Shown here in pieces: positions 22,422-33,305 of a stretch of DNA of 50,700 bases. A program made the translations under genes and the position numbers. This DNA is from a virus. The first letter of the stretch is position 1, and each line of letters begins with the position of its first letter. The notes under the pieces were generated by a model. The model saw only the letters and a list, made by a program, of their open reading frames with translations, made no database searches and was not told the origin of the DNA. Where the stretch lies: the IMG/VR virus record IMGVR_UViG_3300032323_002680, positions 1 through 50,700 of that record. One strand, 5' to 3'.

Positions 22422-22444
22422 ATTATACCATTGACCACTGACAT
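22422..22444 (-). promoter_or_regulatory. TGTCAG-type promoter, copy 14
   Basis: ATGTCA box at 22444-22439, 11 bases, TATAAT at 22427-22422 (reverse strand). Confidence 0.75.
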
Positions 22445-22459
22445 TTGTAAATGAAGCGA

Positions 22460-22500
22460 GGTTCCTCCCCTTTCCCGTTTTCCCACAGAGAGGAGGAACC
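22460..22500 (-). terminator. Long hairpin, probable transcript end
   Basis: GGTTCCTCC and GGAGGAACC pair perfectly over a 23-base loop between the 22515 gene and the next promoter. No long T-run, so a stability or processing element is also possible. Confidence 0.55.
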
Positions 22501-22514
22501 CCACACTTAGCTTA

Positions 22515-22667
22515 TTACTTGACGTTCTTCTTGTCTGTGAAGACTACGCCCTCTTGTGCTGCCTTGCTGATAACGCCTAGAGCTGCAGCTGAAAAGCGAC
22601 CACGCTTGCCTACAGTAATTCCCTGGGCCTTTAGGTATTCACGAGTTGTTGTTGGTGTTGATGTCAT
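22515..22667 (-). CDS. Lsr2 C-terminal-domain-like mini DNA-binding protein
   Basis: 50 residues. REYLKAQGITVGKRGRFSAA is close in layout to the DNA-binding domain of Lsr2 (REWA-x-NG-x-VS-x-RGR-I-PA-x). The RGR loop inserts in the minor groove of AT-rich DNA in Lsr2. The N-terminal oligomerisation domain is missing, so it may compete with or counteract host Lsr2 silencing. Its promoter is a normal -35/-10 type, unlike its neighbours. Start ATG has AAAGGATC upstream; earlier ATGs overlap the promoter. Confidence 0.6.
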   Translation of the reverse strand: MTSTPTTTREYLKAQGITVGKRGRFSAAALGVISKAAQEGVVFTDKKNVK

Positions 22668-22700
22668 TTGTTTGATCCTTTCTAGATCTTTGTTATATAT

Positions 22701-22729
22701 ATTATATCCGAATTTCGGGGTTTTGTAAA
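22701..22729 (-). promoter_or_regulatory. Sigma-A-type promoter TTTACA-N17-TATAAT
   Basis: Reverse strand -35 TTTACA (22729-22724), 17-base spacer, TATAAT (22706-22701). A CGTAA element lies just upstream at 22736-22740. No TGTCAG box. Confidence 0.7.
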
Positions 22730-22775
22730 TAGGGTCGTAAAGCAATATTTTTGCCCGTGTCCCTTAGCTTAATGA

Positions 22776-22802
22776 CCGTTATGTCCGAATTGTCCATAAC
22801 GG
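22776..22802. terminator. 8-bp stem hairpin
   Basis: CCGTTATG and CATAACGG pair over 11 bases, between the 22815 stop and the Lsr2-like gene. Probable end of the upstream transcript, without a strong T-run. Confidence 0.5.
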
Positions 22803-22814
22803 CCAAAGCTATCT

Positions 22815-22997
22815 TTATTCAGTTGTTAGTTCTTCTACTTGGTATGGCTCTATCTTATCCTTTTTAGCAGCAGCCTTTACCCATTCCTTTTTCGGGCTTG
22901 ATACTGCCTTATACCATGCGTCATCGCTATCATCTGCAGTTACTACAATGTAGTAATCTTGAATGATATCTCCATAGACTTTATATTGTTTGCTCAT
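22815..22997 (-). CDS. Hypothetical protein
   Basis: 60 residues: strand-helix pattern (YKVYGDIIQDYYIVVTADDS) like small phage DUF proteins that follow the form 'residue-sensing strand plus DDAWYKA helix'. ATG overlaps the upstream gene's stop (ATGA). Function unknown. Confidence 0.6.
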   Translation of the reverse strand: MSKQYKVYGDIIQDYYIVVTADDSDDAWYKAVSSPKKEWVKAAAKKDKIEPYQVEELTTE

Positions 22998-23131
22998 AGC
23001 CCCACCTGTTCTACCTTATCTTTAATTAATTTAGCAATGATGTTGTGTGCCTCGATGTTTTCAGTTTCGGAGCCACCCCATAGCAATGCCTGTGCCTTAC
23101 TAAGTTGATCGTTTAGATACTCATCACTCAT
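22994..23131 (-). CDS. Small hypothetical protein
   Basis: 45 residues starting MSDEYLNDQLSKAQALLWGG, ending VEQVGL. Overlaps both neighbours (8 bases upstream, 4 downstream), typical of this block. Function unknown. Confidence 0.6.
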   Translation of the reverse strand: MSDEYLNDQLSKAQALLWGGSETENIEAHNIIAKLIKDKVEQVGL

Positions 23132-23438
23132 CTTCATCTTCGTCCTCCTCCTGCTCGTCTTCAGGGTCTACGATGTAGTCCCTGCTTAACATCCAATCTA
23201 AAACTTCTTCTTGATGTTGTTCGGCACCCCACTCCAAGGAGAACCCTTGGCCAGCCTCCACAGCCTCGCAGAGGTGGTCCCACATCTCATCTATGGTGCA
23301 GTTCTGCTTGTAGGTCTCATCCTCAAAGATGTTGTTGATTGTTGACCAAGTCCACAACCAAACCAGGGATAGACCAAGGTCAGTGCTGTCTAGAATCTTT
23401 AAACATTCGTTTAGTTTATCTTTATCTTCAGGCTTCAT
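23124..23438 (-). CDS. Acidic hypothetical protein
   Basis: 104 residues, helical, with a strongly acidic C-terminus (PEDEQEEDEDEDE). Such tails can mimic DNA or bind basic proteins. I chose the ATG at 23438, which overlaps the previous gene by 11 bases; 23456 is possible. Confidence 0.65.
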   Translation of the reverse strand: MKPEDKDKLNECLKILDSTDLGLSLVWLWTWSTINNIFEDETYKQNCTIDEMWDHLCEAVEAGQGFSLEWGAEQHQEEVLDWMLSRDYIVDPEDEQEEDEDEDE

Positions 23439-23694
23439 TACGTGCTCCAATCGCAAATGATAGTTGGTATGTTAGATTATATAGTTCTACTAATGCGTCA
23501 AGGTGTCCTTCAAGATTTAATCTATTAACAGTTTGGTCGTACTCTTCATCATCCTGATTTGTATATTCAGATAGTAATTGCTCGTCAATGAGCATTAGAT
23601 TCTTTAGTTCTCCATGCAAGATATCAAGGCCTGATACTCCTGCATTTACCATGCGTTGCAAATGGGGCGGGAGCCCAATGTCTTCTGAGTTCAT
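23428..23694 (-). CDS. Hypothetical protein
   Basis: 88 acidic helical residues (GLPPHLQRMVNAGVSGLDIL). Start coupled to the upstream stop by TAATG. A TGTCAG promoter lies just upstream, within the preceding gene. Confidence 0.65.
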   Translation of the reverse strand: MNSEDIGLPPHLQRMVNAGVSGLDILHGELKNLMLIDEQLLSEYTNQDDEEYDQTVNRLNLEGHLDALVELYNLTYQLSFAIGARNEA

Positions 23695-23900
23695 TAATAT
23701 ACCCTTTCGTTATTAATCATTATATCATTGGCCACTGACAAAATATGTTCCATAGTATCAATTGCACCAGTGTAATAAGCATCTGATTCAAAATACTCAT
23801 CTTCATTTAAAGGTACATTATTTCTAGCATCCTCTAAATCTTGATTAAGACTAATTAAATGTATCTTCATGTATTCCATAAAGTGTGATGATCTAGTCAA
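23694..23900 (-). CDS. Hypothetical protein
   Basis: 68 residues, start taken as TTG because GGAGGG lies four bases upstream and an earlier ATG would overlap the upstream gene for its whole N-terminus. Helical, acidic. A promoter for the next gene is embedded near its 3' end. Confidence 0.5.
   Translation of the reverse strand: MTRSSHFMEYMKIHLISLNQDLEDARNNVPLNEDEYFESDAYYTGAIDTMEHILSVANDIMINNERVY
23719..23741 (-). promoter_or_regulatory. TGTCAG-type promoter, copy 13 (inside a gene)
   Basis: TTGTCA at 23741-23736, 11 bases, TATAAT at 23724-23719, inside the coding sequence of the 23694 gene and driving the 23428 gene. Confidence 0.75.
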
Positions 23901-24066
23901 AGTAACCCTCCGCCCATAGCCCGTCAAAAAATTCATTTACTTTTTCAAGCTCTGAAATAAACTTATCCTTGGGCATTAAATCGGACGGGTATCTAAGATA
24001 AAACTTCTGAGCCTTAGATATAGTGTCTTGCATAGAAACAATATCATCTTGTGTATAGCCTAGCAT
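23893..24066 (-). CDS. Small hypothetical protein
   Basis: 57 residues starting MLGYTQDDIVSMQDTISKAQ, a helical protein ending in WAEGYFD. Its ATG overlaps the previous stop (ATGCTAG) and its end overlaps the next gene. Function unknown. Confidence 0.6.
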   Translation of the reverse strand: MLGYTQDDIVSMQDTISKAQKFYLRYPSDLMPKDKFISELEKVNEFFDGLWAEGYFD

Positions 24067-24206
24067 TCTATCAACTCCATATATTTAATCATAGTGTTTA
24101 ATGTTATATGAATGTGACAATCACAATCATCTGATGTATCTCTATCATCAAAATGGATTAAGTTGTCATCATAGATATAATCAATTAGTTCTTGGCTGGT
24201 AATCAT
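24060..24206 (-). CDS. Small hypothetical protein with CDCHIH motif
   Basis: 48 residues; a DDCDCHIHIT segment near residue 27 could bind metal. ATGA overlap with the upstream gene, 7-base overlap downstream. Confidence 0.55.
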   Translation of the reverse strand: MITSQELIDYIYDDNLIHFDDRDTSDDCDCHIHITLNTMIKYMELIEC

Positions 24207-24415
24207 AGTAGAAATTCATCTCCTTCAATATAACCATAGTATTCATTGTATGATTGCTTTAAGTTATCAGGAGCAAATTGCATAAATTTCCATTCAGCAA
24301 ATGCCTCCCCTTCTTCTAAGTTAGCATTATTCCAATCTTCAAATAATGCTTGCTCAATATCTACTTGAATTGCTCCAAGAATATGTTCTCCTACTGTATC
24401 TGTAAATGCTTCCAT
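24203..24415 (-). CDS. Hypothetical protein
   Basis: 70 acidic residues (MEAFTDTVGEHILGAIQVDI), coupled by TAATG to the DUF1281-like gene. No family recognised. Confidence 0.65.
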   Translation of the reverse strand: MEAFTDTVGEHILGAIQVDIEQALFEDWNNANLEEGEAFAEWKFMQFAPDNLKQSYNEYYGYIEGDEFLL

Positions 24416-25140
24416 TATGCATCCGCCTTTTCCATAGAAGGTAATAATACCATGTGGGTCTGACAAATTGCCATAGCATCAAGGTCAGCATCATGGCTAA
24501 AGAAACAAGATGAACATATCTCGCCACAATCATTATCGCAATACTCAAATGTATCTGTTGCATCACAGTTGTTACATTTTGTATCATATGATGATTCTGA
24601 GATAACTTCTCCACGGAGGAATTCCATTTCTCCACCCCAACCTGTTTCTTCTTCATATACTAAAGTAAATAGTAGATTAGGGTATTGTGCAGATAGTTTA
24701 GATATAGCAGCAAGAGGTCTTGACCATGCCGTTTCAAAGTTGTAATAGACTACATAGTTCTCGCCATTCTCGGCTTCTTCCATATATGTAGTAGGACTAG
24801 TTTCTTCTTCTGTTACGGCAACATCCCACTTAGTTCCCCAGTTGCGGATATTCCAGTTGTACCAGTCATTAGTTTCAAACTTGTACCAATTCTTGTCGCC
24901 CACCGTACCAAAGTCGGGCTGGGAAAGATAAACCTCGTCAGTAACATTATCATCTATATAGTTATAGATGTTATGAAAACTAAAGATAGGATTAACATGC
25001 TTGATATGTTTAATCTCAAATGCTAAATCACCACGAGATTGAACTTTGCTTATATATGGCTTATTCATTTGTTTAATTAAAGATTTAACTTGGTCAGGAT
25101 TTCCTTCAATAGTTAAACCGTTATATACCCAATTTGGCAT
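24415..25140 (-). CDS. DUF1281/YubB ferredoxin-like domain protein with zinc-binding C-terminus
   Basis: 241 residues. MPNWVYNGLTIEGNPDQVKS, later NWGTKWDVA and FETAWSRPLAAISKLSAQYP, match the YubB/DUF1281 ferredoxin-like family of plasmids and phages. A C-terminal extension has CNNC, CDNDC and CSSC pairs, probably two zinc sites. Function of the family is unknown. The start follows the TGTCAG promoter at 25168; earlier ATGs lie inside it. Confidence 0.75.
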   Translation of the reverse strand: MPNWVYNGLTIEGNPDQVKSLIKQMNKPYISKVQSRGDLAFEIKHIKHVNPIFSFHNIYNYIDDNVTDEVYLSQPDFGTVGDKNWYKFETNDWYNWNIRNWGTKWDVAVTEEETSPTTYMEEAENGENYVVYYNFETAWSRPLAAISKLSAQYPNLLFTLVYEEETGWGGEMEFLRGEVISESSYDTKCNNCDATDTFEYCDNDCGEICSSCFFSHDADLDAMAICQTHMVLLPSMEKADA

Positions 25141-25167
25141 TTTATATCCTTTCGTTGATATGTGATA

Positions 25168-25190
25168 ATTATACATTGGACCACTGACAA
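25168..25190 (-). promoter_or_regulatory. TGTCAG-type promoter, copy 12
   Basis: TTGTCA at 25190-25185, 11 bases, TATAAT at 25173-25168. Confidence 0.75.
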
Positions 25191-25234
25191 ATGGAATAGA
25201 GTTGGCATGTGATACATGCCACATGATTCAGCTT

Positions 25235-25250
25235 TGTGGTCAACATCACA
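25235..25250 (-). promoter_or_regulatory. Degenerate CRP-type palindrome
   Basis: TGTGGTCAACATCACA differs by one base from TGTGA-N6-TCACA and, like the perfect copies, is followed by AATTCCAGGG. Confidence 0.45.
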
Positions 25251-25323
25251 GCAAATTCCAGGGAATATAATTGACAGTCGTAAAGACAATATGCTACCCT
25301 CATGTCTTTGAGGGCAAAGAAAA

Positions 25324-25346
25324 ACCCCCAGATCTTACCTGGGGGT
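25324..25346 (-). terminator. Rho-independent terminator
   Basis: On the reverse strand ACCCCCAG, loop, CTGGGGGT then TTTTTC. One of the best terminators in the window. Confidence 0.85.
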
Positions 25347-25448
25347 ATTGAATAATGGCTGCCTGGATTTCCAACGAAAGAAATAAACCCGCTTTACTTA
25401 GCGCCTGGCCCTAAGACTGATAGACGCACCATTATATTTCCTATTAAA

Positions 25449-25468
25449 ACCAGGACCTTAGTCCTAGT
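25449..25468 (-). terminator. Rho-independent terminator of the 25473 gene
   Basis: On the reverse strand ACTAGGAC-TAAG-GTCCTGGT followed by TTTTAAT, directly after the stop codon. Confidence 0.75.
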
Positions 25469-25472
25469 CTAA

Positions 25473-25838
25473 TTATACCATAACTAGTCGACTGTATTTG
25501 TCTACAAATGATGCTAAGGATGAACTAAATACAACCGTCTCTAAGTCTTCCTCGTATAATGTAAACGTTTGGCTAGCCCAATTAATCACAGGCACCTTAT
25601 GCTCATTGTCCCCCAATTGGTTGACATAGATACCCCACGATAATGTTTGGTTCCAATCTTCTCCAATTAGATGTGATATTGCAATGCGTGTTGCATATGA
25701 TGGGTCCTGCCATCTTGTCTCTGCAGCCTGTACAGCATTTGCTAGTTTTGCTAGCATGTCATATCCTGCCCAGTGCCCATACAAAAACACTGTATCACCC
25801 TTTTGGTCTTTAAACCCAAAGTTTGCTCTGTCTCCCAT
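25473..25838 (-). CDS. Conserved phage/actinobacterial hypothetical protein (MGDRANF family)
   Basis: 121 residues. MGDRANFGFKDQKGDTVFLY, GHWAGYDMLAKLANAV, RWQDPSYATRIAISHLIG and DNEHKVPVINWA are a recurring pattern in actinobacterial and actinophage proteins of unknown role. Compact alpha/beta pattern, full length. Overall arrangement suggests a regulator or host-takeover protein, but no function is known. Confidence 0.7.
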   Translation of the reverse strand: MGDRANFGFKDQKGDTVFLYGHWAGYDMLAKLANAVQAAETRWQDPSYATRIAISHLIGEDWNQTLSWGIYVNQLGDNEHKVPVINWASQTFTLYEEDLETVVFSSSLASFVDKYSRLVMV

Positions 25839-25839
25839 T

Positions 25840-26040
25840 TTATTCCGCCTTTTCTAAAGTAGGTAGTGCTGGTTCTTTCTTGTCTAATTCTATCACTTCA
25901 TAGGCGACCTTGTCTAGGCCTGCCTTATTTTTGTTGTAGTGGTGACCGCAAAAAGCTAGTTCGCCTTCTACTAGTTTAATTAAATACATTGCATCTGCTG
26001 ATCCACATGAATCGCAAGGAATGAATTCTCTGTCTCTCAC
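25840..26040 (-). CDS. DUF7455-like zinc protein
   Basis: 66 residues. CDSCGSADAMYLIKLVEGEL, AFCGHHYNKN is the C-x2-C...C-x2-H-like pattern of a small family common in Actinobacteria. GTG start overlaps the upstream stop (GTGA). Function unknown. Confidence 0.7.
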   Translation of the reverse strand: MRDREFIPCDSCGSADAMYLIKLVEGELAFCGHHYNKNKAGLDKVAYEVIELDKKEPALPTLEKAE

Positions 26041-26183
26041 AGAGCACCGCCTTCGATCATCTCAGAAAGACGGTCAAGAATCCAAGAATCAATATCGTTG
26101 ATATCAATTTCTGATAACTTCTCCATTATTTCTTCACGAGCAAACTTATACCCGTCATCCCATCCATCCTTATACTCTGACAT
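26037..26183 (-). CDS. Small acidic hypothetical protein
   Basis: 48 residues: MSEYKDGWDDGYKFAREEIM, a pattern seen in many small phage proteins (GWDDGY...ARE), ending EMIEGGAL. AAGGAGAG Shine-Dalgarno. Coupled to the DUF7455 gene by GTGA. Confidence 0.65.
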   Translation of the reverse strand: MSEYKDGWDDGYKFAREEIMEKLSEIDINDIDSWILDRLSEMIEGGAL

Positions 26184-26192
26184 AATCTCTCC

Positions 26193-26396
26193 TTAATAAC
26201 CTGTGGTTTCGTAGTCTGATACATAAGATTCAGTTAAGTTATACTTATCTCTAAGTCTACTTACTTTCTCAATACTACCAGTTCCAATGTTGAATGTCAA
26301 TGGAGACATTGCTTGCGGGTCGAGCCCTGTGATTTGTGCATCCCAATAGGCCCTCTCCATGGAGAGCCTATCAGGAGCGGTGAGTTCAAAATACAT
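26193..26396 (-). CDS. Hypothetical protein
   Basis: 67 residues (MYFELTAPDRLSMERAYWDA), start coupled to the upstream stop by TAATG. Mixed alpha/beta, no family recognised. Confidence 0.65.
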   Translation of the reverse strand: MYFELTAPDRLSMERAYWDAQITGLDPQAMSPLTFNIGTGSIEKVSRLRDKYNLTESYVSDYETTGY

Positions 26397-26812
26397 TAGT
26401 CCACCTCTACTGAATCGATAGATGATGACATATATGTAATAGGCTCATCATAAGATACTGTGTCAAAGTCTGTTTCGTGAATTGCATTGATAGCAGACTC
26501 CTCGTCACGAGCATTAACTGTAACTGAATATTGTACTGTTACAGTCAACTCAAATTCATTTGTAAGTTCGAACCCACAGATGCTTGCAATCTCTTCTGCT
26601 TGAAACTCAGTCAATGAATCATCATCAAGGCCCTCTAGTGTAAAGACCTTCATGTTATCACGTAACTGATTCAGAACGCTTGCAGTATTGTAATCTCGTT
26701 GAGTTACACGCTGGATGTGCTCTTCCAACTGTGTAATGCGGGCCTTGTTCTCAACTAACTGTGACTCAAGGAATTCTCGTGTCATGTAGTGATTATCTGT
26801 TGTTGTTTCCAT
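26396..26812 (-). CDS. Short form from internal start
   Basis: 138 residues starting METTTDNHYMTREFLESQLV. Typical leader with CAACAACGAAAGAGGAT before the ATG and a TGTCAG promoter upstream, all inside the long form's frame. Likely the main product, with the long form as an in-frame N-terminal extension. Function unknown. Confidence 0.65.
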   Translation of the reverse strand: METTTDNHYMTREFLESQLVENKARITQLEEHIQRVTQRDYNTASVLNQLRDNMKVFTLEGLDDDSLTEFQAEEIASICGFELTNEFELTVTVQYSVTVNARDEESAINAIHETDFDTVSYDEPITYMSSSIDSVEVD

Positions 26813-27013
26813 TTTATCCTCTTTCGTTGTTGTTGGTGTAATTGTAGCATGCTCCACTGACAATAATGTGGTCTTGCGTCCGCATGGGCATGTGAGCGTT
26901 GTCACACCTGAAGGAAAGCCAAATCCATCAGATGATGTTAGTTCTATTAATGAATCACATTCATCTGGGTCACAGACAAATGTATACTTGCTTGATACTA
27001 GTTCGTTGGTCAT
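26396..27013 (-). CDS. Two-part protein with internal promoter and start (long form)
   Basis: 205 residues from ATG 27013, which lies seven bases after a TATAAT (leaderless). The first ~55 residues carry CDPDEC and CPCGRK, a zinc ribbon. They run in frame through what looks like another gene's promoter and leader (THITPTTTKEDK-like linker) into a second domain from Met68. That domain has a coiled-coil and strand pattern (YSVTVNARDEESAINAIHET). The second part alone can be made from the internal promoter at 26841-26863 and ATG 26812. Confidence 0.65.
   Translation of the reverse strand: MTNELVSSKYTFVCDPDECDSLIELTSSDGFGFPSGVTTLTCPCGRKTTLLSVEHATITPTTTKEDKMETTTDNHYMTREFLESQLVENKARITQLEEHIQRVTQRDYNTASVLNQLRDNMKVFTLEGLDDDSLTEFQAEEIASICGFELTNEFELTVTVQYSVTVNARDEESAINAIHETDFDTVSYDEPITYMSSSIDSVEVD
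26841..26863 (-). promoter_or_regulatory. TGTCAG-type promoter, copy 11 (inside the long form)
   Basis: TTGTCA at 26863-26858, 11 bases, TACAAT at 26846-26841. Confidence 0.75.
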
Positions 27014-27020
27014 GAAGAGA

Positions 27021-27043
27021 ATTATACAGGATCCGACTGACAT
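27021..27043 (-). promoter_or_regulatory. TGTCAG-type promoter, copy 10
   Basis: ATGTCA at 27043-27038, 11 bases, TATAAT at 27026-27021, then seven bases to ATG 27013. A CGTAA element lies upstream at 27077. Confidence 0.75.
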
Positions 27044-27114
27044 TATCAAGGATTTCCAGGGGATTTTTATGTGAGTCGTAACACACTTTTTGCCCCCTTA
27101 GCTTTGAGGGCGCT

Positions 27115-27191
27115 TGGCGATCCATAACGGACTTGAACCGTCGACCTCTACCGTGACAGGGTAGCGCTCTAACCAACTGAGCTAATGGACC
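27115..27191 (-). tRNA. tRNA-Asp (anticodon GTC)
   Basis: Reverse strand cloverleaf with acceptor GGTCCAT/ATGGATC, D arm AGCTCAGTTGGTTAGAGC, anticodon stem CTACC/GGTAG with loop CTGTCAC, T arm GACGG-TTCAAGT-CCGTT and encoded GCCA end. All positions are canonical, so it should be functional. Confidence 0.95.
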
Positions 27192-27192
27192 T

Positions 27193-27224
27193 AAAAAATT
27201 GTGAGCAGTTTTTATTCATGCTCA
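27193..27224 (-). terminator. Terminator of the DUF932 gene
   Basis: On the reverse strand TGAGCA, loop, TGCTCA then CAATTTTTT, between the gene at 27238 and tRNA-Asp. Confidence 0.7.
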
Positions 27225-27237
27225 GGAATTTATTTAT

Positions 27238-28245
27238 TTAGAACGCAGAAATTAATTTCTTAATTTTATTTTTTTCTGCGGTTAGAATTGGGTCAAACCC
27301 TGATGCACCCGCCATGAGTGTTTCAGAATTTCCACGACCTGAACGATAGTAATCAAGGCGTTCAGTAAGTGCATTGAATGCACCCCACTTTGTTCCCTTG
27401 ATGTTAGCGTTAGTTGGTGAGTTGTGATACAACTCGTCAAGCAACACGACTTTGTTTTCCCACTTAGTCAATGCAACTTTAGCAGCATCCTTGTCAGGCT
27501 TAGGATAAATTGTCTGAATTAACTTTGAGAATTCAGCATCAGTGATTGATTGAGAATAAAGAGCCTGAGCCTCTTTCTCGAATTCATCAAAGTAACCAAG
27601 AGCAAGCCCAAGAGTTTCACGAGCAACTTGGATGCGACCTTCAACAGATTGCGTGTGGCGAATCTTGAAAGATTGCTTAGCATTCTTCATTGCAAGATTG
27701 AGAGTGTTTTGGCATACAACACGAACAGGAGTAACAGCAGCCTGAACAGCAACTGACCCGTCATGAGATGTCCAAACAATTAGATACAACTTAGTTGCAT
27801 CATTTGCGCCTTGTGGGTCAAGCACCATTGTGCGAGGAATATCCACTGTACCGAATACAACCTTACCGCTACGAAGTGAGCCAGCAGATTCCCAACGGCA
27901 ATCAGCATTAGCATCATGAATTGCATCAGCAAATGCGAATAGTTCCTCATTCTGCACAGGCTTGTAACGCTTTCCAACAGTTGCAAGAACATCAGTTCCA
28001 TTGTTGAATGGGTTGTCACGAATAACTAATTGAGCATTAGATACATCATTCCATGTATCTGAGATGTGGTCAGTTAGTGGAGACAGGCGAACATTCCAAT
28101 TAGAAAGTTTTGCCTCATCTAACATCATTTGAGTTGTGACATCTTCATCTTGTGTAAAGATGCGATTTGCAAGGTTGTGCCATGCAGGTGCGCCACGAAG
28201 TGCGAATGCAACTTCGCCATTTTCCATTTCTAGATTATGAGCCAT
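27238..28245 (-). CDS. DUF932 phage/plasmid-like protein (TIGR03299 type)
   Basis: 335 residues. WHNLANRIF, VGKRYKPVQNEELFAFADAI, RSGKVVFGTV, YLIVWTSHDGSVAVQAAVTP and RVVCQNTLNLA are the hallmark motifs of the DUF932 family found on phages and plasmids. Full length. Biochemical function is unknown; DNA-related roles have been suggested. Promoter copy 9, a CRP-type site and a DnaA-box pair lie upstream. Leader ends AACGAAAGGTAAAAA before the ATG. Confidence 0.85.
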   Translation of the reverse strand: MAHNLEMENGEVAFALRGAPAWHNLANRIFTQDEDVTTQMMLDEAKLSNWNVRLSPLTDHISDTWNDVSNAQLVIRDNPFNNGTDVLATVGKRYKPVQNEELFAFADAIHDANADCRWESAGSLRSGKVVFGTVDIPRTMVLDPQGANDATKLYLIVWTSHDGSVAVQAAVTPVRVVCQNTLNLAMKNAKQSFKIRHTQSVEGRIQVARETLGLALGYFDEFEKEAQALYSQSITDAEFSKLIQTIYPKPDKDAAKVALTKWENKVVLLDELYHNSPTNANIKGTKWGAFNALTERLDYYRSGRGNSETLMAGASGFDPILTAEKNKIKKLISAF

Positions 28246-28276: not shown

Positions 28277-28299
28277 AGTATAACAGACCCCACTGACAT
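28277..28299 (-). promoter_or_regulatory. TGTCAG-type promoter, copy 9
   Basis: ATGTCA at 28299-28294, 11 bases, TATACT at 28282-28277. Confidence 0.8.
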
Positions 28300-28336
28300 T
28301 GTCTATGATTAGTTACAATATGTCCGAATTGATCAA

Positions 28337-28352
28337 TGTGATTAATCTCACA
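28337..28352 (-). promoter_or_regulatory. CRP/GlxR-type palindrome TGTGATTAATCTCACA
   Basis: Perfect TGTGA-N6-TCACA centred about 74 bases upstream of the predicted start of transcription of promoter copy 9. Identical to the site at 30116. Confidence 0.7.
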
Positions 28353-28363
28353 AAATTCCAGGG

Positions 28364-28395: not shown

Positions 28396-28442
28396 CCCCT
28401 TAGCTTTGCGGGCCAGCTGCATATGCAACTGGTGTTAGATCT

Positions 28443-28697
28443 TTACAGACCTAACTCATCCCTAGTTAATTGGTTTTTGCGATTGAAGTTAATAACTTCG
28501 GACGGGAGGTAAAGAGCAGTAGTCTTAGTCTTCTTCAATGTATCATAGACATAAGCACGAACATCCCCTAAGAAGTTTCCTCTATTAGAGAATGCTAACT
28601 CAGTTAGATAATCTTTATCTACACCTTGTTCTGAATAGATTGTTACATCATTTGCTTTGTTTGCATCATAGATTTCTACTCTGAAACGATTTTTCAT
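28443..28697 (-). CDS. Hypothetical protein
   Basis: 84 basic residues (MKNRFRVEIYDANKANDVTI), strand-rich N-terminus and LPSEVINFNRKNQL near the end. Leader ends AACAAAGGCAACAAA. No own promoter seen; probably read from copy 8. Function unknown. Confidence 0.65.
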   Translation of the reverse strand: MKNRFRVEIYDANKANDVTIYSEQGVDKDYLTELAFSNRGNFLGDVRAYVYDTLKKTKTTALYLPSEVINFNRKNQLTRDELGL

Positions 28698-28768
28698 TTT
28701 GTTGCCTTTGTTAGTAGTTGTCCCACAAGGGAGAGCAGTTTGGCGACATACTCAGGTCGTTGGATTAT

Positions 28769-29191
28769 TTACAGATAACGAGCAACTGCATTGTATGTAG
28801 AAGTATTAACTACTTCCTCATCTGTCATCTTGAGAATACGAATAGCGTTCTCGATTTCTTGCTTTTGCTCTAGGTATGTATGGCGACCCATCTGCTCAAA
28901 GTCACGCTCAGGCTCTGCTGGCAGTTCTGATTGTGTAACTGTCAAATCAAAGTCAATGTTAAGAGTGTTATTCCAAGCACGATAGTTAGTACGGAAGTTT
29001 TCTGCCTTCTTGATGTTAGAAACGGCATAGGCAGTAATTTCCTTCTGCCACTTTTCCATAGCCTTCTTATACTTTGCTTCGTTTGTTTCTTGATTAGCAT
29101 AGTTAGCATTAAGTTCTACCAACTTTGCTTCTAGTGCCTTGATTACCTTTGGTGTTGCGATTTTAACTGAGATTGCTTTTCCTCTAGCCAT
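28769..29191 (-). CDS. Helical hypothetical protein
   Basis: 140 residues, basic coiled-coil-like (MARGKAISVKIATPKVIKAL, KAMEKWQKEI) with an EQMGRHTYLEQKQEI helix. Leader ends CAACAACGAAAGAAGGAAAC. No family recognised. Confidence 0.7.
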   Translation of the reverse strand: MARGKAISVKIATPKVIKALEAKLVELNANYANQETNEAKYKKAMEKWQKEITAYAVSNIKKAENFRTNYRAWNNTLNIDFDLTVTQSELPAEPERDFEQMGRHTYLEQKQEIENAIRILKMTDEEVVNTSTYNAVARYL

Positions 29192-29230
29192 TTGTTTCCT
29201 TCTTTCGTTGTTGGTTAGTTTGATTAAGTA

Positions 29231-29253
29231 ATTATAGCAGGGGGGTCTGACAT
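29231..29253 (-). promoter_or_regulatory. TGTCAG-type promoter, copy 8
   Basis: ATGTCA at 29253-29248, 11 bases, TATAAT at 29236-29231. Confidence 0.8.
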
Positions 29254-29277
29254 TTCTGCGACCCCCCTCCCATTAAA

Positions 29278-29460
29278 TTAAACGCCTAGTAGTGTTTGAG
29301 CGGATACGGAAGTCCAACGAGTTTCCTTGTTGGGCATTTCCAATAGCACACGCACCGAGCCAGATGTTTGTGGGTGGATTTCTTTAATCACACCTGTTTT
29401 CTTTGACTTAAGGGTAGTGAATAAATCGCCTACCTGATACAACTTGTCGTTGATTGTCAT
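29278..29460 (-). CDS. Small beta-rich hypothetical protein
   Basis: 60 residues. YQVGDLFTTLKSKKTGVIKE and GSVRVLLEMPNKETRW suggest a small SH3- or KOW-like barrel. Leader ends AAAAGAGGCAATAA. Function unknown. Confidence 0.65.
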   Translation of the reverse strand: MTINDKLYQVGDLFTTLKSKKTGVIKEIHPQTSGSVRVLLEMPNKETRWTSVSAQTLLGV

Positions 29461-29500
29461 TTATTGCCTCTTTTCTTTGTTAGGTTGGTAATTATAGCAT

Positions 29501-29523
29501 TGGGGTCTGACATTAGTCTAGCC
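29501..29523 (-). promoter_or_regulatory. TGTCAG-type promoter, copy 7
   Basis: ATGTCA at 29523-29518, 11 bases, TATAAT at 29506-29501. Confidence 0.8.
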
Positions 29524-29561
29524 CTGTCTCAGTATTTGAGAAAGTTATTGTGTGACCTTAG

Positions 29562-29822
29562 TCACTCAGGTAGCCAAGCGTGTAAGTGGTGAGCCTCGAT
29601 GATAGCCCACACTGGCGCACATGTCTGCCCCTTGTAAGTAATACCATCAGGCATTTCGATAGTTTCATCCCACATGTCATCATGAGCAAAATCTATTGCT
29701 TCGATACATACTGGCACCATAGAAAGTGGGACGGGTGGGTAATGATTACCCTGTAAGTGATAGCCTATTGCTACCTCTAAGTCTAATTCCTCAGATAAAT
29801 CTAATGCTGTATTGTATCCCAT
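29562..29822 (-). CDS. Conserved actinophage hypothetical protein
   Basis: 86 residues. EVAIGYHLQGNHYPPVPLSM and VCIEAIDFAHDD form a pattern recurring in actinophage proteins of unknown function. Coupled to the upstream gene by TAATG. Confidence 0.65.
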   Translation of the reverse strand: MGYNTALDLSEELDLEVAIGYHLQGNHYPPVPLSMVPVCIEAIDFAHDDMWDETIEMPDGITYKGQTCAPVWAIIEAHHLHAWLPE

Positions 29823-30025
29823 TATTCTGCCACCTTAAGAATTGCGTAGGACCCATTAGCATTTACTTCATCAAGAATTGGTTGTAGGCGTGGTGCCACC
29901 AATTCTTTTAATAGTGACTCTAGCATAAAGATACGAGTATTTTCATCAAGGGCCATAACTTGTGCAGTTACTGGATGGCCTTCCTTAAACTCTGTAACAA
30001 ACTTTAGATTATGTTCTACTATCAT
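29822..30025 (-). CDS. Hypothetical protein
   Basis: 67 residues starting MIVEHNLKFVTEFKEGHPVT. ATG 30025 chosen because upstream ATGs lie inside the promoter. Leader has CAACAACGAAAGGCAAT. Function unknown. Confidence 0.7.
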   Translation of the reverse strand: MIVEHNLKFVTEFKEGHPVTAQVMALDENTRIFMLESLLKELVAPRLQPILDEVNANGSYAILKVAE

Positions 30026-30056
30026 TTTTATTGCCTTTCGTTGTTGGTATAAGAGT

Positions 30057-30079
30057 ATTATACACTGGTCCACTGACAA
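30057..30079 (-). promoter_or_regulatory. TGTCAG-type promoter, copy 6
   Basis: TTGTCA at 30079-30074, 11 bases, TATAAT at 30062-30057. Confidence 0.8.
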
Positions 30080-30115
30080 ATTGTGCAACACGCCCAAGAT
30101 TTATCTTATTTATTT

Positions 30116-30131
30116 TGTGATTAATCTCACA
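30116..30131 (-). promoter_or_regulatory. CRP/GlxR-type palindrome TGTGATTAATCTCACA
   Basis: Perfect TGTGA-N6-TCACA centred about 74 bases upstream of the predicted transcription start of copy 6. Confidence 0.7.
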
Positions 30132-30144
30132 AATTCCAGGGGGT

Positions 30145-30174
30145 TGTGGATAACCCACGTAAGCCTGTGGATAA
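30145..30174. promoter_or_regulatory. DnaA-box direct pair flanking CGTAA
   Basis: TGTGGATAA at 30145-30153 and 30166-30174, 21 bases apart (two helical turns), with ACGTAA between. A CCCGC/GCGGG hairpin follows, then the palindrome TGCATAGCTATGCA. Confidence 0.7.
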
Positions 30175-30207
30175 CCCCGCAGTATTGCGGGCCTGCATAG
30201 CTATGCA

Positions 30208-30339
30208 TCATTCTGCATATTTATTTTTATGTTTGATCTTTCTAAAATATTTTTTCTTATTGCGAACAGGTTGCGCCGCATTACTGCGACGCAATTCCTG
30301 AATTCGCTTTACTTTATCTCGTAGTGAGTTTTGGGACAT
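30208..30339 (-). CDS. Small very basic hypothetical protein
   Basis: 43 residues starting MSQNSLRDKVKRIQELRRSN and ending in a Lys-rich stretch (KKKYFRKIKHKNKY). Probably binds nucleic acid. Overlaps the upstream gene by 26 bases. Confidence 0.55.
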   Translation of the reverse strand: MSQNSLRDKVKRIQELRRSNAAQPVRNKKKYFRKIKHKNKYAE

Positions 30340-30505
30340 GATACCCACTCGCTTCATGAAATCTATTTACATCAAATCGGTCATTATCTTTCGCAAACAT
30401 TTCTGCAAAATCATTTACCATTTTGGAAAATAGTGCTGGGTGTGCTTTATCGCTTGCGAACTTTAGAATTTCCGCAACCGCGACATAATCTTTTCGTGTC
30501 ATCAT
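30314..30505 (-). CDS. Hypothetical protein
   Basis: 63 residues, helical (KDYVAVAEILKFASDKAHPA). Two adjacent ATG codons (30505, 30502) overlap the upstream stop. Function unknown. Confidence 0.65.
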   Translation of the reverse strand: MMTRKDYVAVAEILKFASDKAHPALFSKMVNDFAEMFAKDNDRFDVNRFHEASGYHVPKLTTR

Positions 30506-30705
30506 TTAACTGATACCATTCCATTTCTGTAAAATACTTTGGTGTACATTTTGCCAGTTGGCGTCATTATGTTTACTGTTGAGAATTCGTTAGCCATACC
30601 CCAATCAGTAAAGCGAAAGAAACTTTCCCAAGCACCGAATTCCTTTTCGTATTCAGCCGTCCAGTGTGGCGCATTGCCGTCATAGGCGCAAGTTAATTTA
30701 TACAT
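30502..30705 (-). CDS. Hypothetical protein
   Basis: 67 aromatic-rich residues (MYKLTCAYDGNAPHWTAEYE) with beta-strand pattern. TAATG coupling to the upstream gene. Function unknown. Confidence 0.65.
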   Translation of the reverse strand: MYKLTCAYDGNAPHWTAEYEKEFGAWESFFRFTDWGMANEFSTVNIMTPTGKMYTKVFYRNGMVSVK

Positions 30706-30848
30706 TAGTCATTTTCTCCGTTCCAAAATAGTGAGCCGTCATCTACGCAATCGCAAGGTTCGCAATCAAAATCATTATCATTACCAAAAAAGATTACTCC
30801 ATGACCTAAGCAATCTTGGCAATCTATTGTTAATACTGAGTTAATCAT
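30705..30848 (-). CDS. Small zinc-knuckle protein
   Basis: 47 residues: MINSVLTIDCQDCLGHGVIF, then CEPCDC. Two CxxC pairs suggest one zinc site. TAATG on both sides. Function unknown. Confidence 0.6.
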   Translation of the reverse strand: MINSVLTIDCQDCLGHGVIFFGNDNDFDCEPCDCVDDGSLFWNGEND

Positions 30849-31012
30849 TAGTGTTGTTCCTCGCAATCTTTGTCATAGTCAAATTCGCAGAAATAGCAAC
30901 CCATGAACTCTAAGTGCTTTTCGCAGTAATACTTAAACTGACTTTCATCACAACAAAAATGTTGCTCGTCTGCGATTTCATAGAAATCGGTTTTGTCGAT
31001 TATGTTTAACAT
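30848..31012 (-). CDS. Small cysteine-rich protein
   Basis: 54 residues with CC, CEKH, CYFC and a final CEEQH, a likely zinc- or Fe-S-binding micro-protein. Leader CAAACGAAAGGAAAACT before the ATG, under promoter copy 5. Confidence 0.6.
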   Translation of the reverse strand: MLNIIDKTDFYEIADEQHFCCDESQFKYYCEKHLEFMGCYFCEFDYDKDCEEQH

Positions 31013-31040
31013 AGTTTTCCTTTCGTTTGTTTATTTAGTT

Positions 31041-31063
31041 ATTGTATCAGGTAGCACTGACAA
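31041..31063 (-). promoter_or_regulatory. TGTCAG-type promoter, copy 5
   Basis: TTGTCA at 31063-31058, 11 bases, TACAAT at 31046-31041. Confidence 0.75.
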
Positions 31064-31064
31064 A

Positions 31065-31274
31065 TTACTTTGCCACATTAACGGCAATGGTAGCCCAAAA
31101 GTTATTTAGTCCATGAGTAGGGCGAACCTCGATAGCGTAAGCCTCAAGATTTTCTCCGTACCATAGACCCTCACGCTTTGAGGCATAAACGATAGTCCCC
31201 TCGTTTGGGCGAGAAATTGAGCGGTAGTGTGTTCCTACAAGTAGGGCGGGAATTGAGATAGATTTTGCTGACAT
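31065..31274 (-). CDS. Hypothetical protein
   Basis: 69 residues, beta-rich (ISIPALLVGTHYRSISRPNE), with the look of a small SH3-like barrel. Leader ends AACGAAAGGTGACAACTT. Function unknown. Confidence 0.65.
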   Translation of the reverse strand: MSAKSISIPALLVGTHYRSISRPNEGTIVYASKREGLWYGENLEAYAIEVRPTHGLNNFWATIAVNVAK

Positions 31275-31308
31275 AAGTTGTCACCTTTCGTTTGTTGTTA
31301 TGTATGGA

Positions 31309-31331
31309 ATTATACACGAACCCACTGACAT
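31309..31331 (-). promoter_or_regulatory. TGTCAG-type promoter, copy 4
   Basis: ATGTCA at 31331-31326, 11 bases, TATAAT at 31314-31309. Confidence 0.8.
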
Positions 31332-31378
31332 AATCTAATTACTAGCGAGTAATTCCACATTTTGAGACGCTTAAGTCA

Positions 31379-31394
31379 TGTGATAAAAATCACA
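31379..31394 (-). promoter_or_regulatory. CRP/GlxR-type palindrome TGTGATAAAAATCACA
   Basis: Perfect TGTGA-N6-TCACA about 84 bases upstream of the predicted start of copy 4, one helical turn further than at copies 6 and 9. Confidence 0.7.
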
Positions 31395-31426
31395 AAATCT
31401 TGGGCGTGTCGGAAAATTCCAGGGGT

Positions 31427-31456
31427 TGTGGATAAGTCCCGTAAGGCTGTGGATAA
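31427..31456. promoter_or_regulatory. DnaA-box direct pair flanking CGTAA
   Basis: TGTGGATAA at 31427-31435 and 31448-31456, 21 bases apart, with CCCGTAAGG between; then a GC hairpin and TCAACTT/AAGTTGA hairpin. Confidence 0.7.
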
Positions 31457-31507
31457 CCCCGCTCTTTTGCGGGCGCATCAACTTTTGTCAAGTTGACACG
31501 CCGTTGC

Positions 31508-31606
31508 TTATTCGAAATCCTTAAAAATTTCTTCAAGCTTTAAGATTTGCTCATCTGTAAGATGATCGATTTCAATCGCTTTCTCAAATCCAAAAAAGTC
31601 ATTCAT
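31508..31606 (-). CDS. Tiny acidic hypothetical protein
   Basis: 32 residues starting MNDFFGFEKAIEIDHLTDEQ, one amphipathic helix. Overlaps the upstream stop by 8 bases. Marginal by length. Confidence 0.5.
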   Translation of the reverse strand: MNDFFGFEKAIEIDHLTDEQILKLEEIFKDFE

Positions 31607-31817
31607 TCATTAGCCTTTCCAAATCGTCTGCATTATCTTTTAAGTAATTATCCTCGAAATCTAAAAGTGCCTCATTGTATGCAATAGGGTCACAATCTTT
31701 TAGAATTTGGGAGGGATAAAAAACAGCGTTACCCATTTCATACACGGGATAGCAATCGTCAAGCATTTCATCAAATAATTGTTTAATCGCAAAAGCAATT
31801 TCGAAATCTGTTGTCAT
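31599..31817 (-). CDS. Acidic hypothetical protein
   Basis: 72 residues starting MTTDFEIAFAIKQLFDEMLD, acidic, helical. ATG 31817 has GAGGAG upstream; an earlier ATG overlaps the neighbour. Function unknown. Confidence 0.65.
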   Translation of the reverse strand: MTTDFEIAFAIKQLFDEMLDDCYPVYEMGNAVFYPSQILKDCDPIAYNEALLDFEDNYLKDNADDLERLMNE

Positions 31818-31819
31818 TA

Positions 31820-31999
31820 TTACCAGCACTCCTCACAAGTAAATTTAGTAAAGTCTGCATCTTTTGCAAAAATCTCTAAATAGTTATTCGCACAAATTGT
31901 GCATGATAGCAAATAAGTTTTTGCCTTTTGATACATGTATGGATTAGAGTTAGATAATTCTCTATTCTCTAAAACCTCTGATGAAATTAAAATGCTCAT
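31820..31999 (-). CDS. Small zinc-ribbon protein
   Basis: 59 residues, helical N-terminus MSILISSEVLENRELSNSNP, then CTIC and CEEC pairs. ATGA overlap with the upstream gene. Function unknown. Confidence 0.6.
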   Translation of the reverse strand: MSILISSEVLENRELSNSNPYMYQKAKTYLLSCTICANNYLEIFAKDADFTKFTCEECW

Positions 32000-32181
32000 T
32001 TAGTTAAACTCCAATCGGTGTAAAATGGTAAGCGGTTATTGTCATCATAGAAATAAACTCTATCTATGTTCTGCTCGCATGTTTCGCAGAAAGTGTATTC
32101 GACATCTACGCCCATGCCATAGGTAGTAGATACGCTCTCCATGTGTGGAGTGTGTGTATGTGTAGTTGTTAGTGTAGTCAT
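31996..32181 (-). CDS. Small zinc-ribbon-like protein
   Basis: 61 residues: Thr/His-rich N-terminus (MTTLTTTHTHTPHMES), CETC in the middle and an aromatic tail. ATG 32181 follows GAAAGGTGG, under promoter copy 3. Confidence 0.6.
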   Translation of the reverse strand: MTTLTTTHTHTPHMESVSTTYGMGVDVEYTFCETCEQNIDRVYFYDDNNRLPFYTDWSLTK

Positions 32182-32214
32182 TTGAGACCACCTTTCTTTT
32201 TCGTTATAGTAGGA

Positions 32215-32237
32215 ATTGTACACTAGGGGGCTGACAT
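32215..32237 (-). promoter_or_regulatory. TGTCAG-type promoter, copy 3
   Basis: ATGTCA at 32237-32232, 11 bases, TACAAT at 32220-32215. Confidence 0.75.
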
Positions 32238-32285
32238 TTCTCTACTTACTAGCCAGTAATTCCAAGATGTGAGACGCTCAGCCTA

Positions 32286-32301
32286 TGTGATACTTATCAC
32301 A
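32286..32301 (-). promoter_or_regulatory. CRP/GlxR-type palindrome TGTGATACTTATCACA
   Basis: Perfect TGTGA-N6-TCACA about 85 bases upstream of the predicted start of copy 3. Confidence 0.7.
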
Positions 32302-32313
32302 TAAATTCTGGGG

Positions 32314-32345
32314 TTTTCCACAGAGGCCCGTAACCCTGTGGATAA
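32314..32345. promoter_or_regulatory. DnaA-box pair flanking CGTAA
   Basis: TTTTCCACA (one mismatch) and TGTGGATAA (perfect), inverted, around CCCGTAA; then the 18-bp palindrome CCCGCAAGTACTTGCGGG and GCTTGACATTGTCAAGC. Confidence 0.65.
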
Positions 32346-32400
32346 CTCCCGCAAGTACTTGCGGGCCAGCTTGACATTGTCAAGCCGACACGCCGTTAGG

Positions 32401-32523
32401 CTAGTGTGACTCTTGCCACATCTCTCTCATCTCTGCTTTAAAGTCATGCCATACGATCCTCGCCATGTATAGGGCGGGGAGGGCAAGGGATAACTGTACT
32501 AGTGTAGTAAGTAGTCTATTCAT
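32401..32523 (-). CDS. Tiny membrane protein
   Basis: 40 residues; hydrophobic MNRLLTTLVQLSLALPALYM then a charged tail. ATGA overlap with the upstream gene. Possible membrane-acting takeover peptide; function unknown. Confidence 0.55.
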   Translation of the reverse strand: MNRLLTTLVQLSLALPALYMARIVWHDFKAEMREMWQESH

Positions 32524-32687
32524 GCTGTTACCTTTATGTCCATTACATTAGCGGTAAACTTTTTAATCTTTCCTAATTCGCTATCGTTGAGCGATTGTAT
32601 TACATGGTCAATAGCCTTAGCCTCATGCGCTACATTGTCAATAGAGATTAGTTTAGAGCCTTGCCAAATTGAGTAAGTGATAGTCAT
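32520..32687 (-). CDS. Hypothetical protein
   Basis: 55 residues starting MTITYSIWQGSKLISIDNVA, strand then helix. GGGAGAACTAATA precedes ATG 32687. Function unknown. Confidence 0.6.
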   Translation of the reverse strand: MTITYSIWQGSKLISIDNVAHEAKAIDHVIQSLNDSELGKIKKFTANVMDIKVTA

Positions 32688-32689
32688 TA

Positions 32690-32872
32690 TTAGTTCTCCC
32701 ATGTTAGTTGGTATAGTTTTGCTAGTGCCTCATCATCTGAGTCATCAAATTCATCTAGTGGAGGTTGTTCCTCATCTACCTCATCAAGGTATGCGTATGC
32801 GTCTGCGACATCTGATTGGATAGTATCCCACTTAGACACGCTATTAGTTTCGTATGAGTATGCGTATGACAT
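32690..32872 (-). CDS. Acidic hypothetical protein
   Basis: 60 residues, Tyr/Asp/Glu-rich (YAYLDEVDEEQPPLDEFDDS), strongly acidic, possible DNA mimic or binding partner of a basic protein. TAATG coupling. Confidence 0.6.
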   Translation of the reverse strand: MSYAYSYETNSVSKWDTIQSDVADAYAYLDEVDEEQPPLDEFDDSDDEALAKLYQLTWEN

Positions 32873-32985
32873 TATTTATTCATCTCCTTAGCGATAGCCT
32901 CTGACTTAGTTAGTGCCTCTAGGGCGATTGCTAGGGAGGCAAGGCGTTGCGCCTCTACCATTTGCTTGTATTCATCTAGTGTCAT
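32872..32985 (-). CDS. Tiny helical hypothetical protein
   Basis: 37 residues (MTLDEYKQMVEAQRLASLAI), one long helix. Leader CAACAACGAAAGGTCAGAAT under promoter copy 2 gives firm support despite the length. Confidence 0.6.
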   Translation of the reverse strand: MTLDEYKQMVEAQRLASLAIALEALTKSEAIAKEMNK

Positions 32986-33016
32986 TATTCTGACCTTTCG
33001 TTGTTGTTATGTTGTA

Positions 33017-33039
33017 AGTGTAGCATAGGGGTCTGACAA
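33017..33039 (-). promoter_or_regulatory. TGTCAG-type promoter, copy 2
   Basis: TTGTCA at 33039-33034, 11 bases, TACACT at 33022-33017. Confidence 0.7.
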
Positions 33040-33073
33040 ATTGGGGAGGTTGGAGAGGTGTGTCGGTGTGACC

Positions 33074-33250
33074 TTACTCACACTCTCCGCAAGGGCATTG
33101 AGGAAACTCTTGCTCTTGCTTGATACGATTAGCAAGGCGCTCAACCTTCATGTATGTATCAAATGAAGCGCCTCGGAAAGATACGACCTTTCCTTCAGCG
33201 ATAAGGTGAGCAGCCTTAGCAATTTTTTGCTCTAGTGTTAGTGAAGTCAT
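33074..33250 (-). CDS. Small hypothetical protein with CPCGEC end
   Basis: 58 residues starting MTSLTLEQKIAKAAHLIAEG, ending QCPCGECE, which could bind a metal. First gene of the reverse block, leader CAACAAGAAAGGAAGT under promoter copy 1. Function unknown. Confidence 0.6.
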   Translation of the reverse strand: MTSLTLEQKIAKAAHLIAEGKVVSFRGASFDTYMKVERLANRIKQEQEFPQCPCGECE

Positions 33251-33282
33251 TTTTTAACTTCCTTTCTTGTTGTTATACCTTA

Positions 33283-33305
33283 AGCATAGCATGGGGGACT
33301 GACAA
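33283..33305 (-). promoter_or_regulatory. TGTCAG-type promoter, copy 1
   Basis: TTGTCA at 33305-33300, 11 bases, TATGCT at 33288-33283. Confidence 0.7.

Follow-up and report, generated by a model that had tools for sequence, protein, structure and literature searches.

The subject of this analysis is a block of promoters on the minus strand of a viral DNA stretch of 50.7 kb, the entire IMG/VR record IMGVR_UViG_3300032323_002680, called the window below. The block, at positions 22422-33305, comprises about fifteen mostly small genes with near-identical promoters, an arrangement found in a group of large phages from lakes. At these promoters a TGTC box precedes the -10 element at a fixed distance and a palindrome of the CRP/GlxR type often lies further upstream. 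These promoters form a real, strongly conserved dedicated class with a previously unrecognised host-regulator input. The initial annotation of the window had proposed a dedicated phage promoter class for this block of mostly small genes, and the proposal is supported here, box and -10 (the latter often extended) keeping a constant register. A partial survey of the open-access literature, which leaves out most subscription papers, turned up no account of promoters like these in phages of this kind.

All 14 sites reported by the annotation are present as exact matches to WTGTCAG-N10-TAYRHT, all on the minus strand, and no further exact match occurs in the window; dinucleotide shuffles of the window contain a mean of 0.10 sites and a maximum of 1, and none of 100 shuffles reaches 14. 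The reported gap of 11 bases likewise holds in 14 of 14 sites, being exactly 10 bases from WTGTCAG to the -10 and hence 11 from WTGTCA. A fifteenth site at 24466, upstream of the open reading frame (ORF) 24415-24203, differs only in its -10 (TATTAT). As for the conserved leader said to precede most starts, the claim stands for the shorter ACGAAAG, which is found in nine of the 14 leaders, and falls for the full CAACAACGAAAGG, which is exact in two. An ATG follows the -10 by 20-39 nt at 14 of the 15 promoters. The exception is the promoter at 27043, where the ATG lies at 7 nt and the mRNA would be leaderless or nearly so. The 205-aa ORF that begins there (26396-27013, minus strand) houses a further box promoter, and translation from position 26812, in the same frame, would yield a 138-aa product.

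The palindrome TGTGA-N6-TCACA lies upstream of ten of the 15 window promoters, exactly in seven cases, against 0.10 expected, and with one mismatch in three. Centres range from -63.5 to -85.5, most of them close to -64, -74 or -85, positions that differ by one helical turn. Exact palindromes accompany promoter 1 (33283-33305, WTGTCAG-N10-TATGCT; palindrome 33343-33358, centred at -74.5), promoter 2 (33017-33039; 33067-33082, -64.5), promoter 3 (32215-32237; 32286-32301, -85.5), promoter 4 (31309-31331; 31379-31394, -84.5), promoter 6 (30057-30079; 30116-30131, -73.5), promoter 9, which belongs to the DUF932 gene (28277-28299; 28337-28352, -74.5), and promoter 11, within the ORF of promoter 10 (26841-26863; 26891-26906, -64.5). 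Single-mismatch palindromes are found at promoter 7 (29491-29513; 29551-29566, -74.5), at promoter 10 (27021-27043; 27070-27085, -63.5), where TTGATA adjoins the box at 17-bp spacing, and at promoter 12 (25168-25190), which has two, at 25235-25250 (-81.5) and 25208-25223 (-54.5). Such a site is absent from promoter 5 (31041-31063) at up to two mismatches, from promoter 13 (24444-24466, TTGTCAG-N10-TATTAT, the additional fifteenth site), from promoter 14 (23719-23741) and from promoter 15 (22422-22444), and the sole palindrome of promoter 8 (29231-29253), with two mismatches and centred at -40.5, was not counted.

Relatives were fetched with the 335-aa DUF932 protein of the window (PF06067; 27238-28245, minus strand), whose homologue in the Streptomyces phage Riptide is located in the terminal repeat of that phage. 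Loci L128-L207 are the best 80 of 252 relatives and loci L261-L340 the best 80 of at least 595, both sets chosen by protein homology; such phages are thus common in viral contig collections, one protein having 252 relatives in one scan and at least 595 in a wider one. Loci L009-L127 were fetched by the box itself and form a biased set, which is included in the 383-site logo, the box-variant counts, the counts of CRP-type sites over 477 promoters, the phasing (n 177), the clade split, the upstream motifs and the -35 count over 421 promoters. Distinct promoters were thinned at 70-80% identity, and sites at contig ends were dropped. Relatives of 96-117 kb indicate that the window is part of a larger phage. 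One of them, G003 (115 kb), matches Riptide in TerL (60%), major capsid protein (63%), portal (56%) and DnaE (54%), in order, and is syntenic with it over much of its length; Riptide-type Streptomyces phages are presumably those designated 'BE'. Phage Yaboi, assigned to Stanwilliamsviridae in its record, has a corresponding block. The homology and synteny of G003 with Riptide would make the window phage a Stanwilliamsviridae-like actinophage, an assignment that forms part of an overall explanation, set out below, whose chance of being right as a whole is about even.

The distance between box and -10 is rigid. The block strand of 80 loci fetched by homology holds 608 distinct TGTCAG contexts, 406 of which have a -10 at 10 bp and none of which has one at 9 or 11 bp. 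The leftover sites that bear a leader mostly have weaker -10s, still at 10 bp. When anchors were defined by -10 and leader only, the box not being assumed, 175 distinct anchors gave 85 exact TGTCAG, 22 with one mismatch (19 of them TGTCGG), one with two and 67 with three or more; ten of these 67 match 5 bp away, a true box read from a second -10-like hexamer, while the antisense strand gave none in 40 with 0-1 mismatch. A free 4-mer scan anchored on -10 and ribosome-binding site covered 59 of the 80 distant-homology loci (21 with two or three boxes being omitted) together with the Riptide and Yaboi loci (L210, L256). TGTC starting at -28 was the top 4-mer, in 89 of 634 anchors from box-poor loci (mean 4.3) and 247 of 856 from box-rich ones (mean 8.5); in Streptomyces-like phages it is enriched without leading (11 of 143 against 0.8).

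The logo of 383 distinct sites reads AAW-TGTCAG-T-SS, TGn, TATAAT, with an A at the expected start and an unconserved -35, the conservation of TGTCAG and of the TA...T of the -10 being imposed by selection and so not a result. What the wider family shares is TGTC alone, at -28 to -25, the two following bases differing between phages. These are AG in 204, GG in 72 and TG in 56 of 422 distinct promoters, with 90 others; taken phage by phage, in displays one of which covers 14 of the 80 loci, TG predominates in eight loci, L298 and two Streptomyces-like loci (L261, L262) have a C followed by another base, and others are mixed. A division into separate TGTCAG and TGTCGG phage groups was rejected, both forms being mixed within genomes. 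Single-base variants within TGTC are rare at 10-bp spacing. The commonest, TTTCAG (64, against 49 at other spacings) and TGGCAG (38, against 8), were discarded as they reduce to just six and two distinct contexts, none with leader and ATG. Among viral contigs, TTGACAAATGTC combined with an extended -10 turned up in only nine stretches, against one for the control, so in that form the box is not general to unrelated phages. The two apparent boxes of Microbacterium phage Warren, which lie in G+C-rich surroundings with no evident leader, are taken as a coincidence. Positions -22 to -20, just after the box, show two modes over 421 distinct promoters, TGG (174) and ACC (81), and no single consensus.

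At the -10, TGn or a TG adjoining the hexamer is present in 295 of 422 distinct promoters. At normal spacing (16-18 bp), five or six of the six TTGACA bases are matched in 72 of 421 distinct promoters; once the flank is shuffled the figure drops to 4 of 421. The logo shows no conserved -35, but with these promoters keeping one, the idea of a box that takes the place of the -35, as at the middle promoters of T4, is not supported in its stated form. Reading the box itself as an ordinary -35 at 11 bp gives the wrong geometry, a canonical -35 sometimes being present as well at 17-18 bp. In phage record G013 (L227-L229, L234) and fragment G014, which have canonical TTGACA promoters, TTGACA stands immediately before TGTC at several promoters, so that TTGACA-AA-TGTC is palindromic (core TGACA-AA-TGTC). 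The portal and terminase of G013 match families other than the Riptide type, and its bases after TGTC are not fixed.

The upstream palindrome, too, recurs among the relatives. Within one mismatch it accompanies 226 of 477 distinct promoters, three permuted controls giving 0-3, with centres that peak near -54.5, -64, -74 and -84.5 and a best period, of those tried, of 10 (R 0.77, n 177); the sequences being related, Rayleigh values are not true probabilities. Eleven near-complete genomes hold 73 exact palindromes, the reversed control none, and 70 of the 73 lie inside the box span or within 100 bp of it, the others (one in G004, two in G010) being 0.3-1.5 kb beyond. In the wider clade of the window 180 of 367 distinct promoters have a CRP-type site. 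No exact palindrome occurs in the 120 kb of Riptide scanned or in L261-L266. The cyclic nucleotide-binding domain PF00027 was matched in none of 14 related records, the control being matched in ten of 14 genomes including C. glutamicum, and a host CRP-family regulator is therefore implied. The simplest reading is that a candidate regulator of this family acts as at class I promoters, and the sites suggest that the virus ties its block genes to host physiology.

In ten relatives (96-117 kb) the exact sites, 9-16 per genome, all share a strand and are gathered in a single block of 6.7-11.4 kb, with 0-1 matches to the reversed control pattern; one block is interrupted by a contig end and two run across contig ends. 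The corresponding block of Riptide, which includes the DUF932 homologue and a gene annotated Lsr2-like, forms a perfect terminal direct repeat of 10,690 bp. Because of this correspondence the window block may be a terminal-repeat-type early region. In the freshwater contigs G008 and G010 the block extends across the ends of the contig, as would a repeat that had been collapsed during assembly, though this is no proof of a terminal one. Outside the block, canonical extended -10 promoters with TTGAC in four phages have TGTC at -28 in 0 of 43 cases, and in Riptide outside the repeat the count is 1 of 178; four canonical matches inside the block of the same four phages also lack it, and three TGTCRG sites lie beyond the main block in those genomes (two in the L212 phage, one in G017). 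The TGTC element is therefore a property of the block promoter class and not of the polymerase generally. Among the best 80 of at least 595 relatives, at least three TGTCRG boxes stand on the gene strand in 37 loci and none in 21, these 21 including all eight with a G+C above 0.48 and thirteen of lower G+C. In a DUF932 tree in which several rows are long and their placement unsure, the Streptomyces phages, without TGTCRG boxes, group with four box-bearing phages (support 99/98). Box density evidently does not follow DUF932 phylogeny, a pattern that can also be read as host dependence.

The explanation that best accommodates these observations, given an even chance overall, is that a host CRP-type activator and a dedicated, in-register reader of TGTC act together at the early block promoters. 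The block would be a terminal-repeat-type early region in which many genes or small operons each have their own promoter of one shared design. In the window's clade about half of the promoters would carry an upstream site for a host activator of the CRP/GlxR family, followed by a weak or optional -35, a motif in the spacer, AAW-TGTC(A/G)G (-31 to -23), with its TGTC core fixed at -28 to -25, often an extended -10, and the ribosome-binding leader. The -10 would be recognised by the RNA polymerase of the host carrying the main sigma factor, and the CRP-type protein would act upstream, in phase with the helix, in the manner of class I promoters. A dedicated factor touching the polymerase would recognise TGTC in register with the -10; it would be MotA-like in logic, though not necessarily a relative of MotA. 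The elements, their spacing and phasing, their confinement to the block and their conservation are direct observations. Promoter activity, activation in preference to repression, the timing and the identity of both proteins are inferred from the DNA.

A dedicated reader in contact with the polymerase is proposed because the register is rigid, which disfavours a plain blocking operator, and because TGTC is class-specific. Since TGTC occurs in both Streptomyces-like and freshwater phages, the reader would be old, and a conserved phage protein, with a likelihood a little short of even, is favoured over a host protein, which is possible at lower odds. Three proteins may be candidates, each present in 14 of 14 relatives (97-133 kb): a homologue of the MerR-like helix-turn-helix protein of Riptide, with weak matches (24-38% identity) in ten of the 14, a helix-turn-helix protein of 46-50 aa, and the WhiB-like protein. 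A search by gene content for a box-specific activator failed, the 21 ORFs of G003 that are found in three box-rich genomes and absent from Riptide including no recognised DNA-binding protein; the approach is weak, as Streptomyces-like phages have some TGTC boxes and some of the 21 ORFs look spurious.

Several observations weigh against this two-factor explanation. Phages in which TGTCRG boxes are few or absent have all three candidate readers as well, and no DNA-binding protein specific to box-rich phages was recognised by eye. The bases after TGTC follow DUF932 relatedness loosely, the nearest neighbour being of the same class in 37 of 53 cases (0.45 expected), which weakens the case for a co-evolving phage reader. 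Of the promoters, 5 of 15 in the window and 251 of 477 in the wider set have no CRP-type site, and in the broader homology set the palindrome is found at 88 of 422, with peaks at -64, -74.5 and -84.5 and weaker phasing (R 0.52-0.57, n 71). The centres are 2-3 bp off the class I optima of E. coli. The match to the -35 is better at promoters with a CRP-type site than at those without (3.41 against 2.77), which runs counter to simple compensation. Five groups of divergent box phages, finally, have none (G013 0/4, G012 0/14, G016 0/14, L118 0/6, G014 0/3; 0/41 in total), and because such phages mostly lack it, the CRP-type site, present at 4 of 13 promoters in the L212 phage, is an addition to the TGTC promoter class.

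The promoters might instead be run entirely by the host, the block entering first and being transcribed immediately. Polymerase and CRP/GlxR would both be those of the host, and TGTC would be read by another host factor or through a property of the host polymerase, so that a phage activator would be unneeded. This is possible, if on the whole doubtful. The CRP-type sites do imply a host factor, the corresponding block of Riptide is a terminal direct repeat with near-canonical promoters, and TGTCRG density departs from the DUF932 tree, with the caveat that placements are partly unsure; yet canonical promoters elsewhere are devoid of TGTC at -28, and its presence in Streptomyces-like phages makes a single freshwater-host factor insufficient. 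The position of the box within the promoter spacer also invites comparison with repressor sites between -35 and -10, and on that view a phage repressor would bind TGTC as its operator and silence the block at a later stage. Phages are known to carry numerous near-identical operators in one genome, as with stoperators, and the palindromes of G013 and G014 are of the kind an operator might have. The logo of the window clade has no palindrome, however, and a blocking site needs no exact distance to the -10, whereas none was found at 9 or 11 bp, and the repressor must be judged improbable.

The initial annotation had named, as one possible factor, the phage WhiB-like protein, which, bound to sigma region 4, would direct the polymerase to the box. 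Wbl (WhiB-like) proteins do bind sigma region 4, and WhiB was found in 10 of 10 and 14 of 14 relatives searched (three records being common to both sets) and is annotated in Riptide as gp224. In the window it is encoded outside the block (PF02467; 3108-3419, plus strand), and its gene lies 17-19 kb from the block there and in G001 and G003. It is conserved, but it is present, too, in phages that have few TGTCRG boxes or none, the box lies downstream of where known Wbl proteins touch DNA, and some promoters keep their -35. The suggestion finds no support as stated and is very unlikely to hold.

The host likely belongs to the low-GC freshwater Actinobacteria, because of the WhiB protein, the Streptomyces relatives, a G+C of 35-42% in the block-bearing genomes or fragments G003, G012, G016 and the L212 phage, and the existence of WhiB-bearing phages of low-GC Nanopelagicales (PMC10202952). 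A scan of genome contigs yielded one contig of the same phage family (L212 / G011 contig 31, 110 kb), binned in a metagenome-assembled genome titled uncultured cyanobacterium, where it is probably mis-binned.

Other features of the window may be noted. A 50-aa Lsr2-like homologue (22515-22667, minus strand) has 44% identity over 39 residues to Riptide gp7, which is annotated Lsr2-like, and no Pfam match; its gene has an apparent TATAAT promoter and leader without a TGTC box, and similar box-free promoters precede the same leader in relatives. Three tRNA genes are present, for Asp inside the block (27115-27191, minus strand), Ile (35114-35189, plus strand) and Arg (16712-16783, plus strand). 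At 4318-4875 on the plus strand lies a 185-aa homologue of HslV/proteasome-like Ntn hydrolases, with 31-39% identity, among the 20 matches listed, to proteins of Vibrio, Aeromonas, Geobacillus, Moorella and other phages. A repeated intergenic element was seen by eye on the minus strand at about 32350, 31430, 30180, 28400, 27100, 25300, 22740, 21980 and 21840, often 60-110 bp upstream of a box promoter. It consists of an imperfect inverted repeat around TTACGA or TTTACGA, followed by CCTGGAATTT; its arms vary between copies, some being paired TTATCCACA, which we take to resemble DnaA boxes. CCTGGAAT lies upstream of 39 of 421 distinct promoters. A further motif, GGCGTGTCG or its reverse CGACACGCC, is enriched upstream in the relatives and the window, and GCGTGTC is found upstream of 88 of 421 promoters, its starts clustering at -45/-44 and at -86, a separation of roughly four helical turns.

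If the two-factor explanation is true, a phage gene block is wired to a host CRP-family regulator and a fixed promoter-spacer element, and both elements could be tested directly in those Streptomyces phages of the family that can be cultivated. A bolder proposition, offered tentatively and with the balance leaning against it, is that TGTC, in its fixed place from -28 to -25, represents a promoter element new to bacteria, read by a novel class of activator that works beside a retained -35 instead of displacing sigma region 4, and combined with host cAMP-CRP in one phage regulon, by which an entire, widespread freshwater phage family would gate its early block on host carbon status.

Among known systems, the promoters of the Riptide and Yaboi terminal repeats share with the block promoters a corresponding block, many genes with their own promoter and a similar leader, and appear to be evolutionary relatives. 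They differ in having a TTGnnn -35, a -10 that is TAGACT in most cases, and TGTC boxes that are few and never TGTCRG; in five Streptomyces-like loci TGTC stands at -28 in 6 of 35 distinct promoters listed, TGTC being itself one of two entry criteria to that list. The stoperator of Cluster A mycobacteriophages, GGTGGMTGTCAAG, an asymmetric operator, also contains TGTCA. The difference from it that the annotation had pointed out is borne out in flanks and position: the logo has no GGTGG before the box, the distance to the -10 is fixed, and at 10-bp spacing TGTCAA occurs 3 times against 1572 for TGTCAG. The upstream palindromes are identical to the consensus TGTGA-N6-TCACA of GlxR of Corynebacterium (PMC7999487), and their centres lie upstream of the -35 in helical steps. 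They agree with class I sites in sequence and phasing, and differ in being located in a phage block with a second fixed element within the spacer.

T4 middle promoters provide the closest parallel in logic. As described in PMC2988021, they carry a MotA box, WWWTGCTTtA, 12 +/- 1 bp from a sigma-70 type -10 that has TGn in about half of them; MotA tolerates deviations in its box and acts with AsiA by sigma appropriation. On that description, the block promoters resemble them in their main-sigma -10 with TGn in many promoters, in an A/T-rich triplet followed by TG, and in a phage-specific box between the -35 and -10 regions of many promoters per genome. The match to the position of the MotA box that the annotation had claimed does not hold, as the box here ends exactly 10 bp from the -10. 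Moreover, the box reads AAWTGTCRG, single-base variants of TGTC are near absent where MotA is tolerant, a good -35 is partly kept and CRP-type sites are added. Thus, the block promoters are not classed as members of the T4 middle group, and MotA serves as an analogy only.

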